NCBI RefSeq assembly: GCF_016469035.1
Contig: NZ_JAEHJZ010000025.1
Location: 1-64,000 of the forward strand
Direction: 5' to 3'
Source: Gelidibacter salicanalis
GTDB lineage: Bacteria > Bacteroidota > Bacteroidia > Flavobacteriales > Flavobacteriaceae
DNA: 64,000 nucleotides
This document shows, piece by piece, positions 26,928-34,035 of this stretch; positions within the stretch are counted from its first letter, which is position 1, and every line of letters starts with the position of its first letter. The notes beneath the pieces are model-generated. The model ran no database searches, was not told the origin of the DNA, and saw only the letters and a program-made list of their open reading frames with translations. The position numbers were made by a program, and so were the translations under genes.

Positions 26928-27308
26928 CTAAACGAGCAATTTTTGATAAACGCTATCTTTTATAGCTTGGTTTTGGGTTACACACGCCACATATTTTTCA
27001 AATATATAGTCATGTTTTTGCAAGTAAAATAGATCACACTCCATTTCATCGCACTCCCTCACATTATTATTGAACAAGTTTCTATAGGTGTAAAATTCAT
27101 TCAACAGATTAATATTCTCATTAATATCGTCCAACAAGGCATCACGCAACTCTTTATCTCCAATTCTGTGGGACACTATTTTTGCCAGTTGGTCCGCTTC
27201 AGTATTCATAGCGTCCAAATGGGATATCCAGGTATGAAGCTCCCGATGCATATGTCTTTTTACGATTTCATCATCTGTTTCATGACCGTAATTAACTAAA
27301 GGTTCCAT
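26928..27308 (-). CDS. Hypothetical helical protein, last gene of the gdh operon
   Basis: A 126-residue, His/Asp/Asn-rich protein that looks wholly helical. It has two cysteines in RECDEMECDLFYL, one later in YVACVTQ, and several histidines (RHMHRELHTWISHL). I recognise no family. The start overlaps the stop of the Gre/Rnk-like gene by one base (TAATG), and it ends the operon that contains glutamate dehydrogenase. The His/Cys/Asp content would suit metal binding, but that is a guess from composition. Confidence 0.6.
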   Translation of the reverse strand: MEPLVNYGHETDDEIVKRHMHRELHTWISHLDAMNTEADQLAKIVSHRIGDKELRDALLDDINENINLLNEFYTYRNLFNNNVRECDEMECDLFYLQKHDYIFEKYVACVTQNQAIKDSVYQKLLV

Positions 27309-27721
27309 TACGCAATATTTAATTTTTTTATATTATTTTGTTTGACATCCAAAATAGTTATGTCTTTGTCTCCTCCTGGAAAGGTCCAGCTAATACTATC
27401 ATTTTTGGCATATCCCATAACCGCTGCTCCCATTGGCAATAACAACGAAATTTTCTTTTGAGCATTGTTGCTTTCAGCGGGCAACACGACTTGGAATGTA
27501 TATGACCAGCCATCATTGGTAGCTATTGTAATTTCTGAATTGATTCTTACAACATCATCAGGCATTTTATCATCATCCAAAATTTCAGCACTTTCCATTT
27601 CTTTAGCGAACTTGGTCAGTGAGACCTTTTGGGTGGAGTCTTTATAATCATTAGTGAGCGTCAACAATCGTTTTATCATCACATACTCTTTCTTTTCTAA
27701 TATCAAATTACCGTACTTCAT
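27308..27721 (-). CDS. GreA/GreB C-terminal-domain protein (Rnk-like)
   Basis: A 137-residue protein. The C-terminal part (about 58-130) has the Gre FKBP-like domain pattern: VRINSEITIATNDG, QVVLPAESNNAQKKISLLLPMGAAVMGYAKNDSISWTFPGG. The first 50 residues are a short helical segment, much shorter than the GreA coiled coil that reaches the polymerase active site. This matches Rnk-like regulators that bind RNA polymerase without cleavage activity. It starts 20 bases after the gdhA stop and is coupled to the following gene, which points to co-regulation with nitrogen metabolism. Confidence 0.82.
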   Translation of the reverse strand: MKYGNLILEKKEYVMIKRLLTLTNDYKDSTQKVSLTKFAKEMESAEILDDDKMPDDVVRINSEITIATNDGWSYTFQVVLPAESNNAQKKISLLLPMGAAVMGYAKNDSISWTFPGGDKDITILDVKQNNIKKLNIA

Positions 27722-27741: not shown

Positions 27742-29037
27742 TTAAGGAAAAATACCACGTTGTATATACGCTCTTTCAATACGCTCTATCGCAATTATAT
27801 ACGCCGTTGAGCGCATATCAAGATTTTTTATTTGAGAGGTTTCGTATACTTTTTTAAACACCTCTTTTATTCTTTTGTCTAGTTTAACCATGATCTCATC
27901 AAGACCCCATAATTCGCCATTACGGTTTTGTAGCCATTCAAAATAACTACCTACCACGCCGCCTGAATTACAAAGAATATCAGGAATGACCTCAATGCCT
28001 CGTTCTTTCAAAATCTTTTCGGCTTCTACTGTGGTTGGGCCGTTGGCTCCCTCAGCAATTAAAAACGCCTTTATTTGATACGCTCGATCTTCTGTTATTT
28101 GGTTGCCCAATGCTGCCGGAATACAGATATCACAATCTAAGGCAAAAAACCTGTCATTATCGATAATATCCGACTCTGGAAACCCTACAATACTGCCGTC
28201 GTTGGCCTCTGTATAGTTAAATAGAGACTCCACTTCCAACCCCTTAGGATTGACTATGGTTCCAAAAGCATCTTGGACGCCTACCAATTTTGCGCCTACT
28301 TCCTGCAAAAAGTGAGATGTCCAATACCCAACATTTCCAAACCCCTGTACAATAAAAGTTTTATCCTTCAGGTCAATATGTTTATATTCCGCCCAATATT
28401 TAATGGTCAAAAACACGCCAAACCCTGTTGCTCTATCTCTTCCTTCAAGACCTCCAGATCCTACTGGTTTTCCCGTAACCACATGCTGATTTTTAGAGCG
28501 CTCAGATGGTGTTTTCGTTGACATATAAGTGTCAGCAATCCATGCCATGGTTTGCGCATTGGTATTAACATCTGGTGCCGGAATATCGTGTTCCGGACCA
28601 ATATTGTCTCCTAAAGCATAGGCAAAACGTCTTGTAATACGCTCCAACTCTGACAGGGAATATTTTTGTGGATCCATTTGAATGCCTCCTTTAGCACCGC
28701 CATAAGGCAATCCTGCTAAAGATGTTTTCCAAGTCATCCACATAGCCAATGCTTTTACAGCATCAATGTCAATAGTGGGATGGTAACGCAACCCGCCTTT
28801 GTACGGACCAAGTGCGTTATTATGTTGCACACGATAGCCTTTGAAAATTTCAATTTCACCGTTGTCCATACGTACCGGAAAATGAATGATAAGTTCATTA
28901 TTGGTAACGGACAAGATTTTCTTGATGTTGGGATTTAAATTCATTAGTTCAGAGGCCGTGTTGAATTGCTTCATCACATTCTCAAGCATACCTTGCTTTG
29001 GAACTTGTTTCTGTTTTGTTTCTTTTGTTAAAGCCAT
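27742..29037 (-). CDS. gdhA: Glutamate dehydrogenase (Glu/Leu/Phe/Val dehydrogenase family)
   Basis: A 431-residue hexameric-type dehydrogenase interconverting glutamate and 2-oxoglutarate plus ammonia. The substrate-site motif LPYGGAKGGIQMDP holds the catalytic lysine. The NAD(P) motif is VQGFGNVGYWTSHFL. The proton-donor segment DIPAPDVNT and the late LCNSGGVVGSYFEW are intact. Cofactor preference is not decided by eye. It is the second gene of an operon led by a Cys-rich small protein that has a sigma-54-type promoter match. The substrate call (glutamate rather than leucine) follows overall similarity and context. Confidence 0.9.
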   Translation of the reverse strand: MALTKETKQKQVPKQGMLENVMKQFNTASELMNLNPNIKKILSVTNNELIIHFPVRMDNGEIEIFKGYRVQHNNALGPYKGGLRYHPTIDIDAVKALAMWMTWKTSLAGLPYGGAKGGIQMDPQKYSLSELERITRRFAYALGDNIGPEHDIPAPDVNTNAQTMAWIADTYMSTKTPSERSKNQHVVTGKPVGSGGLEGRDRATGFGVFLTIKYWAEYKHIDLKDKTFIVQGFGNVGYWTSHFLQEVGAKLVGVQDAFGTIVNPKGLEVESLFNYTEANDGSIVGFPESDIIDNDRFFALDCDICIPAALGNQITEDRAYQIKAFLIAEGANGPTTVEAEKILKERGIEVIPDILCNSGGVVGSYFEWLQNRNGELWGLDEIMVKLDKRIKEVFKKVYETSQIKNLDMRSTAYIIAIERIERAYIQRGIFP

Positions 29038-29047
29038 TTATTTATAT

Positions 29048-29245
29048 TTATATGAAAACCTCCTCTTTACCGCCAGAGGCAGATAAATTGTTGGCCTGTT
29101 TCATTATATTCTCTTGAAAAGATTGATCATGATCACCCGATACCTCATACTCACTGCAAGACCAGATAAAACCTTTATCACTTGTTAAACAGCAATAGGC
29201 AAGATGCTCACACGATGCACATAAACTATTTTCCGGACCATCCAT
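29048..29245 (-). CDS. Cys-rich small protein, first gene of the gdh operon
   Basis: A 65-residue protein from the ATG at 29245. It carries LCASCEHLAYCCLTSDKG and WSCSEYE, that is CxxC, CC and a final Cys, the spacing of a small metal (Zn or Fe-S) site. The C-terminal half is polar. An ATG at 29269 would add eight residues but lies at or upstream of the transcription start predicted from the sigma-54 site at 29275-29290, so I prefer 29245. gdhA starts ten bases after its stop. No family recognised. A redox- or metal-sensing partner of the operon is an inference only. Confidence 0.65.
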   Translation of the reverse strand: MDGPENSLCASCEHLAYCCLTSDKGFIWSCSEYEVSGDHDQSFQENIMKQANNLSASGGKEEVFI

Positions 29246-29274
29246 AACGTCATATTTAAAGCATAGCATACAAA

Positions 29275-29290
29275 AGCAATAGCTATGCCG
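29275..29290 (-). promoter_or_regulatory. Sigma-54 (RpoN) promoter match for the gdh operon
   Basis: On the minus strand the sequence is CGGCATAGCTATTGCT. It has GG and GC separated by exactly ten bases and agrees with the consensus TGGCACN5TTGC at GGCA and TTGC. The -12 C is at 29276, so transcription would start near 29264, 19 bases before the ATG at 29245. The gene for an NtrC-type activator with an intact GAFTGA loop ends about 130 bases upstream. A chance GG-N10-GC is possible, but the extra matches and the position are favourable. Confidence 0.6.
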
Positions 29291-29422
29291 TTAAATCATA
29301 AACCTATGTAATTTACGTTAATTAATTGAAATTCAGTAATTTAGGATAAAATTTACTAAAATTAAAAAAACAAGAGCGGTTCAATTTTACCCACTGGGGA
29401 ATTGTTACTCACATAAAAATGT

Positions 29423-30748
29423 TTATTTGATTTTATCGCGTAAGGTTTTACGATCAATTTGAAGAATTTGTGCAGCTTTGGTTTTATTATTGTCTACCGC
29501 TTCTAACACCTTAAGAATGTGTTGTTTTTCTACTTCTTTCAGTGATAATAAAACATCTTCTTTGGGGAAGTCGATCTGGAATTTTAGATATTTAGGTAAA
29601 TTTTCAATCTCCACTTGTTTGTCGCACATAATTACAGCGCGCTGAATACTATTTTCCAGCTCTCTAATATTTCCTGGCCAATCATAGCGTTCTAACGCTA
29701 ATAGTGCCTCTTCAGATATGTTAACAATGCGGTCCTTATACTCTACCCCATATTTAAACAGAAATTTATTTACTAAGAGTGGAATATCTGATTTTCGATC
29801 TCTTAAAGGTGGCACATCAATTTGGACAACCGTAAGACGGTAATACAAATCTTCCCTGAAATGACCATTTTTAATTAGCTCTTTTAAATCAACATTAGTC
29901 GCTGCAATAACTCTGACATCAATCTTTTCCACTTTTTGGGAGCCGACTCTCATAATCTCCTTTTCTTGCAGCACTCTCAGCAAACTCAATTGTGTACCCA
30001 TGGAAGCGTTTCCTATTTCATCTAAAAAAAGGGTCCCTTTATTGGCCGCCTGAAAAAACCCACTCCGATTGTCGTTGGCACCAGTAAAAGCACCTTTGGT
30101 GTAGCCAAACAATTCCGCTTCCAAAAGATTTTCCGGTATTGCACCGCAGTTGACTGCTACAAATGGCGCTGCCGCAAATTTACCCTTATAATGGATGGCA
30201 CGGGCCACCAATTCCTTTCCGGTGCCACTTTCTCCTTTTATAAATACTGTTGCTTTATTGTCCTTTACCCTGTCAATAATATTCGACACATTTTTAAAAG
30301 CTTCTGATTGCCCTATAAGCTCGCCAAAAACAGGATTCCGCAGCGTTGATTTGCGGGTTTCAGAATGAGCCCTAGGCCGCAATGCTATGGACTTTTCCAC
30401 AGCATTCTTAAGTTCTTCTTTGGTAAATGGTTTGGTCAAATAATCCATAACCCCAGACTTCATTGCTCTTAAGGCACCATCTATGGAAGGAAACCCCGTT
30501 ACCGCCAATTTTGGAATTTCAGGAAAATGCTCAGACACATATTTAACCAACTGTAGCCCATCCACACCTGGCATCTGAAGATCCGTTATTAAAAGATCAA
30601 TAGTTTGATCCTGTAAAATAACAATGGCTTCTTTTACGGAAATCGCTTTATAGGTATGATAATTTAAGGACTTGAGGTGTCTTTGGATGAGTTCCAAAAT
30701 ATGGACATCATCATCCACAATCAATATATTCTCCTTTTCCAACAGCAT
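29423..30748 (-). CDS. NtrC-family sigma-54-dependent response regulator
   Basis: A 441-residue regulator in three parts. Receiver (about 1-120): phospho-acceptor Asp56 in LLITDLQMPG, with acidic VDDD near residue 12 and Lys in LTKPF. AAA+ domain (about 142-375): Walker A GESGTGKE (172-179), the sigma-54 contact loop GAFTGA (219-224) and FLDEIGNAS as Walker B. A Fis-type helix-turn-helix ends the protein (KTKAAQILQIDRKTLRDKI). It lies three bases after the kinase gene, in the operon acs-kinase-regulator. A candidate target promoter lies directly downstream. Upstream enhancer sites were not identified. Confidence 0.93.
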   Translation of the reverse strand: MLLEKENILIVDDDVHILELIQRHLKSLNYHTYKAISVKEAIVILQDQTIDLLITDLQMPGVDGLQLVKYVSEHFPEIPKLAVTGFPSIDGALRAMKSGVMDYLTKPFTKEELKNAVEKSIALRPRAHSETRKSTLRNPVFGELIGQSEAFKNVSNIIDRVKDNKATVFIKGESGTGKELVARAIHYKGKFAAAPFVAVNCGAIPENLLEAELFGYTKGAFTGANDNRSGFFQAANKGTLFLDEIGNASMGTQLSLLRVLQEKEIMRVGSQKVEKIDVRVIAATNVDLKELIKNGHFREDLYYRLTVVQIDVPPLRDRKSDIPLLVNKFLFKYGVEYKDRIVNISEEALLALERYDWPGNIRELENSIQRAVIMCDKQVEIENLPKYLKFQIDFPKEDVLLSLKEVEKQHILKVLEAVDNNKTKAAQILQIDRKTLRDKIK

Positions 30749-30751
30749 CAG

Positions 30752-31852
30752 TTATATTTTTGGAAATGTCAGTGTAAACAGTGCTCCTTTTGGTTTATTA
30801 AAACTGTGTTTTATAGTTCCTCTATGGCTTTTCATAATACCATGAACCACACTCAATCCTAAGCCGGAACCTTCACCCACTGGTTTTGTAGTATAAAATG
30901 GGTTAAAAATAAATTCAGAAATTTCTCTTGGAATGCCCTTACCTTCATCACTGATATTCAGGACAAGTTCTTTTGGCTGATTGCTGACGTCCACTATAAT
31001 ATGGCCGTTTTTGGGCGAAAAATAAATGGCATTGATGACCAAATTAAAAACAACCTGAGTCAATTGGATGGCATCAACTCTTAAGGTAATGTCCTCTTCA
31101 CTAAACTGCAAGTGACATTCAATGCTTTTTTTACTAAAGTTAGGTTTTAAAAGATTAATAGCCTCTGTGATGATGGGGTTAATGTTGACAAGTTCCATGT
31201 GGTGCGGCATTTCGCACGAAAAAAACATCAGCTTTTTGACTACTTCCCTCGAAAAAATTGCACTGTTCATAATTTTATCCAAATCCTGTAGCGCGTCTTT
31301 ATCTTTAGCAAACCGCTCTTTTAATAATTCAGAAAATCCTAAAATATTCGCTAATGGCGTATTTAGTTCGTGTGCAATTCCTGCGGTAATTTCGCCTAAA
31401 ATCGCCAATCTATCGGAGCGGGCCATTTGGCGCTTGGTCAGTTCTTCTTTATCGATAATTTGCTTGCGTTCAATGAGATTTCCAATTTCTGAGGCCAATG
31501 TTTTTAGTAGTTGCTTCTCTTCTTCCAAGAAAACATTCTCATTAAACTTAGATTTCGGGTATCCTATTTTGATGGAACCATAAGGCAAATTAAACACTTT
31601 TATGGCCGATAAAATAAATACTTGGTCTTGCAACCGCTGACCGGCATGCACGAGCTCATTGCCCAATTTCATTTCTACAAAAGCTTCTTCCGTATAAAGA
31701 ATGGCCGCCTTCAGACTGGCGGCAATCGCTTTAAATGTAGGTTCTAGATCGTACAGGTTACAATTGGCAATATAGGAACTGACATTGTAAAGACAGGTCA
31801 GTTCCTTAATGCGTTCTTTTAGTTGATCTTCGGTTGTAACAAGCGCTCCCAT
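30752..31852 (-). CDS. Soluble sensor histidine kinase, partner of the NtrC-type regulator
   Basis: A 366-residue kinase without membrane segments or signal peptide, so the signal is cytosolic. The N-terminal about 125 residues look like a GAF-type sensor domain. The H-box is AGIAHELNTPLANILGF with phospho-His161. The N-box NLVINAIYFSP, G1 DEGKGIP and G2 GEGSGLGLSVVHGI complete an intact ATPase. It starts eight bases after the acs stop and ends three bases before the regulator gene. Co-transcription with acs suggests it reports on acetate, acetyl-CoA or energy state; the ligand is not known. Confidence 0.92.
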   Translation of the reverse strand: MGALVTTEDQLKERIKELTCLYNVSSYIANCNLYDLEPTFKAIAASLKAAILYTEEAFVEMKLGNELVHAGQRLQDQVFILSAIKVFNLPYGSIKIGYPKSKFNENVFLEEEKQLLKTLASEIGNLIERKQIIDKEELTKRQMARSDRLAILGEITAGIAHELNTPLANILGFSELLKERFAKDKDALQDLDKIMNSAIFSREVVKKLMFFSCEMPHHMELVNINPIITEAINLLKPNFSKKSIECHLQFSEEDITLRVDAIQLTQVVFNLVINAIYFSPKNGHIIVDVSNQPKELVLNISDEGKGIPREISEFIFNPFYTTKPVGEGSGLGLSVVHGIMKSHRGTIKHSFNKPKGALFTLTFPKI

Positions 31853-31860
31853 TTTGACGT

Positions 31861-33765
31861 TTAAATCCTATGATCTATAATTTCTTGTACAACTTCCGGG
31901 TTCAACAAAGTACTTGTATCCCCCAAGTTGGTCATGTCATTTTCTGCAATTTTTCTCAAAATACGGCGCATAATTTTTCCACTTCTGGTTTTTGGCAGAG
32001 CTTCCGTAAACTGTATTTTATCGAGTTTAGCAATCGGTCCAATACGTTCTGATATCAACTGATTAATTTCCTTACGTAAATTATCATGAACTCTGCTTTC
32101 TCCTGTTTCTTTTAAAGACACATACCCATAAAGCGCGTTCCCTTTAATCTCATGAGGGAACCCCACAATGGCGCTCTCAGCTACTGCTGGATGCTCATTG
32201 ATCGCATCTTCCAAAGGTCCTGTTCCTAAGTTATGTCCTGAGACAATCACCACATCATCTACCCTTCCTGTAATCCGATAATACCCAACTTCATCCCTCA
32301 AAGCACCATCACCTGTAAAGTACATATTATCATAAGTGGAGAAATACGTTTCTTTATAACGTTGGTGGTTATTCCAAATAGTACGTGCCATCCCTGGCCA
32401 CGGAAATTTGATACACAAGCTACCTTCTACTTGGTTTCCAATCAGTTCATCACCAGTTTCACCTACCAAAGCGGGTTGCACACCCAAAAATGGCAAGGTT
32501 GCATAAGTTGGTTTTGTTGGTGTTACATAGGGTAAAGGCGTAATCATGATGCCTCCTGTTTCTGTTTGCCACCACGTGTCAACAATTGGGTTTTTACCTT
32601 TGCCGATAATGTCATTATACCAATGCCAGGCTTCCTCATTAATAGGTTCTCCTACGGAGCCCAATACTTTAATTGAGGACAAATCTACATTCTCAGCAAA
32701 GGAAAGGTTTTGTTTTGCTAAGGCGCGAATTGCTGTAGGCGCCGTATAGAATTGATTGACTTTATGTTTTTCCACAATTTTCCAAAATCGTCCAAAATCT
32801 GGATAATGCGGCACACCCTCAAACATTAACGTGGTTGCTCCATTTGCCAAAGGCCCATAAACAATATAACTATGACCGGTAATCCAACCAATATCTGCAG
32901 TACACCAATACACATCCTTTTCTTTATATTGGAACACATTTTTAAAGGTGTAGGCGGTATACACCATATAGCCAGCAGTAGTATGTACCATCCCTTTTGG
33001 TTTGCCTGTAGAACCTGAAGTATATAAAATAAATAACGGATCTTCCGCATCCATAACTTCTGCTTCAAAAACAGCAGATGCTTCATCCATTAAGGGTTGC
33101 AACCAAATATCGCGATTTTCAACCATGGTAATCTCAGAATCCGTACGTTTTACCACCAATACTTTATCGACCTCACACTCTTGAAGTGCCTCATCTACAA
33201 TGCCTTTTAAATCGATGCTTTTGTTGCCTCTGTAAGATCCATCTGCGGTGATGACCAGTTTACAATCACTATCAATGATACGGGTTGAAAGTGCTTTAGA
33301 TGAAAATCCTGCAAACACAACGTTGTGTATGGCACCAATCCTGGCACAAGCCAATAAGGTTACGGCCAGTTCAGGAATCATAGGCAAATACACGCATATC
33401 CGATCTCCTTTTTTTACGCCTTGATCTTTTAGAACATTCGCCATTTTACAAACACGCTCATAAAGCTGTTTATAGGTGATGTGCTGCGCTTCTTCATCAG
33501 GGTTATTCGCTTCAAAAATAATGGCTGTTTTATTGCCACGATTGAGCAAATGTCTGTCCAAACAGTTTTCCGTAATATTCAGCTTGGCACCTTCAAACCA
33601 TTTAATTTCTGGCGTATTAAAATTCCAGCTGAGCACCTTGTCCCATTTTTTTCGCCACAAGAAATGTTCTTCCGCTATTTCTTCCCAAAAATTTTCAGGC
33701 TCGCGTACTGACTTTCTATAGACTTGGTAATACTCTTCGAGGTTTTTAATGCTGTAATTACTCAT
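31861..33765 (-). CDS. acs: Acetyl-CoA synthetase (acetate--CoA ligase)
   Basis: A 634-residue AMP-forming ligase that activates acetate to acetyl-CoA. The adenylate-forming core YTSGSTGKPKGMVHT, the WWQTETGGIMITPLP motif, the hinge around YRITGRVDDVVIVSGHNLGT and the acetylatable lysine in KTRSGKIMRRILRK (Lys597) are all present. The N-terminal domain is that of true acetyl-CoA synthetases, with the CxGxxGVxxGDR-like VKKGDRICVYLPMIPE. It leads an operon with a histidine kinase and an NtrC-type regulator. The 270-base gap upstream of it, to the symporter gene, shows no clear sigma-54 site in my reading. Confidence 0.95.
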   Translation of the reverse strand: MSNYSIKNLEEYYQVYRKSVREPENFWEEIAEEHFLWRKKWDKVLSWNFNTPEIKWFEGAKLNITENCLDRHLLNRGNKTAIIFEANNPDEEAQHITYKQLYERVCKMANVLKDQGVKKGDRICVYLPMIPELAVTLLACARIGAIHNVVFAGFSSKALSTRIIDSDCKLVITADGSYRGNKSIDLKGIVDEALQECEVDKVLVVKRTDSEITMVENRDIWLQPLMDEASAVFEAEVMDAEDPLFILYTSGSTGKPKGMVHTTAGYMVYTAYTFKNVFQYKEKDVYWCTADIGWITGHSYIVYGPLANGATTLMFEGVPHYPDFGRFWKIVEKHKVNQFYTAPTAIRALAKQNLSFAENVDLSSIKVLGSVGEPINEEAWHWYNDIIGKGKNPIVDTWWQTETGGIMITPLPYVTPTKPTYATLPFLGVQPALVGETGDELIGNQVEGSLCIKFPWPGMARTIWNNHQRYKETYFSTYDNMYFTGDGALRDEVGYYRITGRVDDVVIVSGHNLGTGPLEDAINEHPAVAESAIVGFPHEIKGNALYGYVSLKETGESRVHDNLRKEINQLISERIGPIAKLDKIQFTEALPKTRSGKIMRRILRKIAENDMTNLGDTSTLLNPEVVQEIIDHRI

Positions 33766-34035
33766 ATATAAATGTTCTTTTTGTTAGTGTTTCTAATTAA
33801 TTGTTGCTGCTGTTGTCTGTTAATGAACAACAGATCGTTCTTTCAAAAATATCAATTAATTTTTAAAATAGTATAAAGCTGTCCATTACTTGAGTAAATT
33901 CCTATGTTAAACCAAATAAACCCAATTTAAAATGTTCCCAATCTGAAAAAATAGACGATGCCACAATCCATATAAGGATTACAACACTAATTTTGATATA
34001 TTGCTTTTGGTTGAATTTAGTTTTTAATCCTGTTT

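Follow-up and report, generated by a model that had tools for sequence, protein, structure and literature searches.

Comparative evidence for a proposed enhancer-linked sigma-54 module beside an NtrC-type regulator gene in Gelidibacter salicanalis and other Flavobacteriaceae

The stretch of DNA considered here (the window, 64,000 nucleotides of Gelidibacter salicanalis) carries on its minus strand a series of genes that includes acs, encoding acetyl-CoA synthetase (31861..33765), and directly behind it the genes for a histidine kinase (HK, 30752..31852), recognized by profile and structure prediction, and an NtrC-type response regulator (RR, 29423..30748), the proposed activator of the genes that follow. 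These are the genes for a small protein with four cysteines, the Cys4 protein (29048..29245), a glutamate dehydrogenase of the ELFV family (gdhA, 27742..29037, profile match), a Gre/Rnk-like protein of 137 aa (27308..27721) and a helical protein of 126 aa (26928..27308), all of them on the minus strand as well.

The RR combines a receiver domain bearing the phospho-acceptor Asp56, an AAA+ domain with GAFTGA at residues 219-224 and a Fis-type helix-turn-helix, the features of an NtrC-type protein, and none of the 63 RRs that were aligned differs from it in GAFTGA, in Walker A or in the acidic residues of the receiver, the phospho-Asp included. Its best NCBIfam matches are NtrC, AtoC and ZraR; assignment to any of these equivalogs was rejected, since the scores of 394.6, 393.1 and 374.9 bits all lie below the respective equivalog cut-offs of 558.6, 714 and 760. 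The sensor region of the HK is predicted to adopt a GAF fold (pLDDT 92), with matches to GAF domains in both Foldseek and VIA, and Cys20 and Cys213 are found in 62 and 61, respectively, of 62 aligned HKs; the best NCBIfam matches, AtoS and ZraS, are again below the equivalog cut-offs. A single match to the RpoN DNA-binding domain (E 4.5e-51) indicates that the genome has one rpoN.

The open reading frame listed for the first operon gene encodes 73 aa and begins at ATG 29269, which is upstream of the transcription start predicted below. We reset the start to ATG 29245 and take the Cys4 protein to have 65 aa because the alignment of eight orthologues starts there. Its four cysteines (C-x2-C-x5-C-x11-C) are invariant in 62 of 62 aligned sequences, and no confident match to a Pfam or NCBIfam family was obtained. 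The operon glutamate dehydrogenase shares 32% identity with a further GDH-family copy of the same genome (L192). The 137-aa protein matches the GreA_GreB C-terminal domain of Pfam; its identification as Rnk, GreA or GreB was rejected on scores below the NCBIfam cut-offs (PRK05753, 87.2 against 109; greA, 55.9 against 139; greB, 32.9 against 171.05). The 126-aa protein is a predicted three-helix bundle with a near-invariant ECx4CD motif, and no informative relatives of it were found.

A GG-N10-GC match on the minus strand near ATG 29245, noted in a preliminary description of this DNA, is present as the sigma-54 (-24/-12) element CGGCATAGCTATTGCT at 29290-29275 of that strand, identified by pattern match and orthologue comparison. 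Its GG (29289-29288) and GC (29277-29276) have the GG-N10-GC spacing, the transcription start predicted from it is at about 29264, and 29 nt separate it from the ATG. The element differs from TGGCACN5TTGCW at two positions, and two-mismatch matches to this pattern number 25 in the window, compared with 31.8 +/- 5.5 in shuffles; across the whole genome (5.16 Mb in 682 contigs) YGGCAYN5TTGCW has 8 matches, compared with 11 for a reversed-pattern control. Such counts are what one would expect if the string were a functionless chance match. Taken alone, the element is indeed weak and at chance level, and the case for it is carried by its position and conservation. A perfect 7-bp inverted repeat (29261-29267 / 29282-29288) overlaps the -24/-12 region in the window and is not conserved in the other Gelidibacter loci.

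The loci used for comparison were drawn from 397 Flavobacteriaceae genomes by two routes. A profile search with the Cys4 protein was positive in 67 genomes and one with the HK sensor region in 93, both being counts that ignore relatedness. The first route gave 60 fetched loci besides the window's own, three of them from Gelidibacter; together with five named Gelidibacter loci and the window they form a set of 66 Cys-selected loci, 65 of which have an RR. The second gave 36 HK-selected stretches, 33 of them with a forward RR, and these loci are new, yet seven of their genomes were already Cys-positive. The 98-locus set referred to below joins the 65 and the 33 under one definition throughout. 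The HK and RR genes lie upstream of the Cys4 gene in 59 of the 60 fetched loci (the exception is the stretch of L112), the gdhA, Gre/Rnk-like and helical-protein genes lie downstream in most of the 60, and the order acs-HK-RR-Cys4 is found in all seven named Gelidibacter loci.

Within Gelidibacter (the window plus seven named loci) the gap between the RR and Cys4 genes has diverged, yet a block just behind the RR stop codon is conserved, and YGGYAYN5TTGC occurs 28-31 bp before the Cys4 ATG in all eight aligned loci. Among the 65 Cys-selected loci with an RR, the pattern YGGYAYN5TTGY, whose three Y positions and final Y were chosen after the loci had been viewed, occurs in 51 at no more than 260 bp from the RR stop, where first-order Markov shuffles expect 0.46. 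With GC at -12 the same range yields 42 of 65 loci against 0.16 expected from the same kind of shuffle, which is a cleaner figure than the counts for 98 loci.

The repeated upstream enhancer that the preliminary description had proposed to look for was found as two tandem dyads just after the RR stop codon. In the window this candidate enhancer, recognized by comparison of loci, occupies 29377..29411 of the minus strand (centre about 29394), 12 nt past the RR stop codon and 104 bp upstream of the -24 element, and consists of TGAGTA-N5-TCCCCA (29411-29395) and TGGGTA-N5-GAACCG (29393-29377), the second of which is imperfect in its GAACCG half. The general form is TGGGTA or TGGTAC, N5, and TACCCA or GTACCA, with the members of the tandem pair 1-3 bp apart behind the RR stop. 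The dyads are conserved among the loci and represent a candidate binding site of the regulator. Their score is at or above the 99th shuffle percentile (16) in 59 of 63 loci, and ranges from 13 to 23 behind RR as against a maximum of 15 in control regions upstream of HK; autoregulation through this element was not seen there, because those regions score no higher than 15.

The patterns for both site and dyads were relaxed after the loci had been viewed, so that the counts for 98 loci describe rather than test; on that footing, a -24/-12 site at the usual offset, accepted as 102-111 bp from the best dyad centre, is found in 84 of 98 loci on the expected strand, and the reverse strand has none in any of the 98. 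These 84 sites are at distances of 102-109 bp from the dyad centre (median 106, SD 1.4), across a spacer that is on average 36% identical (1500 random pairs). Separated by origin, a site at 102-111 bp is present in 61 of 65 Cys-selected and 23 of 33 HK-selected loci (0.08 and 0 expected from shuffles), a dyad score of at least 17 in 55 and 22 (0.6 and 0.2 expected), and both together in 55 and 21, or 76 of 98 overall, with 0 expected. The GG, A and TTG of the sites are imposed by the pattern itself, and at freely varying positions the 84 sites have T at position 1 in 57, C at position 4 in 72 and C at position 15 in 66; the -12 element reads GT instead of GC in 18 of them. That 84 of 98 loci keep a site at fixed spacing, with none on the reverse strand, contradicts the reading of the string as a chance match, to which we now give practically no weight. 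A functional sigma-54 promoter at 29290-29275 is very likely because the -24/-12 element is conserved; loss of the GG and GC pairs among orthologues would have told against the promoter claimed in the preliminary description, but all eight Gelidibacter loci retain them, and a site stands at the usual offset in the 84 of 98.

The 14 loci in which the site is missing at the usual offset depart from the pattern in several ways. Four (L079, L087, L091, L180) have a longer gap or an inserted gene, with the site or a near-site closer to the Cys4 gene, and one (L171) is partly masked. Weaker variants, read by eye, occur in six, five with TTGA at -12 and one with TTAGC: L183, L185 and L189 combine GGGCA or GGGTA with TTGA at a comparable position, L186 has GGGCA with TTAGC, L156 has TGGCACAACTGTTGAA and L069 a weak TTGA form. 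L176 and L187 match at other offsets (29 and 83), and L184 has no site match. Long-gap loci were assessed partly by eye: in eight loci with a longer gap or inserted genes (L077, L081, L082, L092, L099, L101, L103, L113) a site, in some of them degenerate, stands at the usual distance before the insert, and L079, L087, L091 and L114 have dyads and a promoter-like site once more immediately in front of the Cys4 gene, the site of L079 being without the usual -12. The loci L183, L185, L186 and L189 belong to more distant HK relatives, and their Cys4 protein is a variant (LCFNCD-x4-C-x10-11-CEHF) missed by the Cys4 profile; L188 has both versions joined in tandem within one 87-aa protein; the module is probably older than that profile detects.

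The reading that we favour, with considerable confidence, is that of a dedicated local sigma-54 module made up of GAF kinase, RR, enhancer, RpoN polymerase and operon. Comparison of the loci shows that its promoter and enhancer, the spacing between them, the order of the genes and the residues of the activator are conserved, and from these we infer binding, phosphorylation, the transcription start and physiology. The GAF-type kinase would sense a signal and phosphorylate the adjacent NtrC-type regulator, which would bind the pair of dyads that follows its own gene, loop across about ten turns of DNA and activate RpoN-RNA polymerase at 29290-29275; transcription from about 29264 would then yield the Cys4 protein, glutamate dehydrogenase, the Gre/Rnk-like factor and the helical protein. 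The sigma-54 promoter might instead be activated by some other enhancer-binding protein, in place of the adjacent regulator or together with it. Another activator could bind because the genome has seven strong Sigma54_activat matches, the adjacent RR being one of them, but the dyads stand immediately behind RR in most of the 98 loci, even where the downstream genes differ, and HK and the Cys4 gene occur together in 66 of 67 Cys-positive genomes, so that we consider this alternative unlikely. The one Cys-positive genome without HK (G385) has a Cys match that contains a stop, as is also the case in G245 and G250. The earlier proposal that the adjacent NtrC-type regulator drives the operon is supported by the dyads behind its gene and the conserved, spaced promoter.

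In the window's own genome the enhancer pattern is found only here and once on contig C325, where it is not accompanied by a sigma-54 site, and a stricter dyad pattern has no match in this genome or in 8 of the 25 others searched. Elsewhere, a near-perfect copy of the dyad pair occurs at another place in a relative's genome (L135, G261:C5:160526), with no recognizable sigma-54 site at the usual offset. In L133 and L138 dyads precede a gene for a four-helix, sensor-like and membrane-protein-like product of 206-209 aa, with a sigma-54 site at a different spacing or with no site matched. Genes of this sort lie near HK-RR in several genera and resemble 4HB_MCP_1 (over the Pfam cut-off in L105, below it in L164); they may represent a further target or input of the module.

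The position of acs bears on a further alternative, in which the operon is mainly expressed by read-through from acs-HK-RR, so that acetate metabolism and the downstream cargo would be co-expressed from a sigma-A promoter before acs. TAnnTTTG is the -7 box of sigma-A promoters in Flavobacterium (PMC9723704); a match to it, TATTTTTG, lies upstream of acs at 33844..33851 (minus strand) and is retained by all eight Gelidibacter loci. No such box is found in the window's RR-Cys4 gap. The genes are collinear, and acs-HK-RR are probably co-transcribed in Gelidibacter, as suggested by gaps of 8 nt (acs-HK) and 3 nt (HK-RR), from which it would follow that acs expression could set the amount of regulator. 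Read-through into the operon is conceivable because the window's RR-Cys4 gap yielded no terminator, nor does the window have an inverted repeat of at least 7 bp behind RR. In relatives, however, inverted repeats of at least 7 bp are found at +45 to +150 behind RR, in some of them as AAACCCTT..AAGGGTTT, and occur in 35 of 96 loci (the 98 minus L058 and L059) against 11.7 expected; it is possible that they form the terminator of the HK-RR transcript. Read-through would also leave a conserved enhancer and promoter at fixed spacing unexplained, and acs stands directly before HK in only 9 of 66 loci, all of them Gelidibacter (adjacency was judged on the Cys-selected loci, the HK-selected stretches beginning too near HK). 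We therefore regard this alternative as very improbable. The tie to acetate activation as a regulatory output, drawn in the preliminary description, finds no support either in this adjacency count or in the sequence before acs, where none of the eight Gelidibacter loci has a YGGYAYN5TTGY match. An acetate-responsive regulator of acs was likewise considered and rejected, on the lack of a sigma-54 site before acs in these loci and on the restriction of the dyad pattern in this genome to the present locus and C325.

Of the genes named in the preliminary description, gdhA is a frequent, not a constant, cargo, being absent from five of the seven named Gelidibacter loci. By tblastn with the window proteins, counting presence within the stretch rather than strict adjacency, 59 of the 66 Cys-selected loci contain gdhA, 63 contain gre and 58 the helical-protein gene. 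For the 36 HK-selected stretches the numbers of detections are 25 for gre, 19 for the helical protein, 16 for gdhA and 7 for the Cys4 gene. A cluster of universal-stress-like proteins is added in 16 loci (Pfam Usp matched in L070 and L172, not in L107), and L172 has an MscS channel among its downstream cargo. In L160, L161, L167, L169 and L174 the dyads and spaced sigma-54 site face the gene for an exported-looking protein of ~115 aa, for which no Pfam match was found in the one tested (L167), and in the last four of these loci an ApbE gene follows. A second gre-like paralogue lies behind RR, downstream of the enhancer/promoter cassette, in L077, L082, L092, L099, L101, L103 and L113, and the Pfam match of the extra copy was confirmed in L101. 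Because the downstream cargo varies among genera, its mix probably points to a response to stress or energy state rather than to acetate. More tentatively, and with rather more doubt than belief, one might picture an undescribed sigma-54 stress pathway in many Flavobacteriaceae, in which a cytosolic GAF kinase and the enhancer-linked regulator induce a Gre/Rnk-like factor, a metal- or redox-binding Cys4 protein and a second glutamate dehydrogenase and so reset transcription and the metabolism of glutamate together, the Cys4 protein acting as a feedback or redox element.

To our knowledge, binding sites or targets have been assigned to few sigma-54 activators in Bacteroidota. In the present case the activator, its proposed enhancer motif, a rule of spacing and the operon to be controlled form one conserved unit in dozens of genera, unusually well supported for a promoter claim made in silico and, because it is so widespread, directly testable in any tractable strain of Flavobacteriaceae. 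Further targets can be predicted from the enhancer motif, and the module provides a setting for the Cys4 protein and the helical ECx4CD protein, which represent two unnamed families.

Systems of the NtrBC, AtoSC and ZraSR type have an upstream dyad enhancer and a -24/-12 promoter. In common with them the present module has a predicted promoter and a candidate enhancer of these kinds, the HK and the receiver-AAA+-Fis regulator with GAFTGA; it differs in its GAF-fold sensor, enhancer motif, cargo, lineage and sub-equivalog scores. In Bacillus subtilis the sigma-54-controlled glutamate dehydrogenase gene is rocG. Sigma-54 control of such a gene, predicted for the module, is common to both; in B. 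subtilis the enhancer is downstream of the gene (PMC3162934), whereas the candidate enhancer of the module is upstream, next to the gene of its activator, and further genes belong to the operon. The corresponding orthologous group, COG0334, is among sigma-54 targets in Bacillota, according to the part used of a study of predicted cross-phylum regulons, which also gives enriched predicted targets in Flavobacteriia and in which part the gene set and enhancer found here are not described (PMC12316311). Flavobacterium psychrophilum, of the same bacterial family, has a sigma-54 regulon (motif SM4) with -24/-12 promoters at mapped 5' ends; the selected promoters in the main text, from which the term 'glutamate dehydrogenase' is absent, are those of chaperones, Lon, gliding-motility and exported proteins (PMC9723704). 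The preliminary description knew of no system with this gene set, and none was found among the matches listed in a search of the open-access literature (titles and abstract starts, with subscription papers mostly outside its range). The module is ordinary in kind, a two-component activator with its enhancer and sigma-54 promoter; its novelty, as far as that search extends, lies in the genes that it combines, in the motif and in the lineage.
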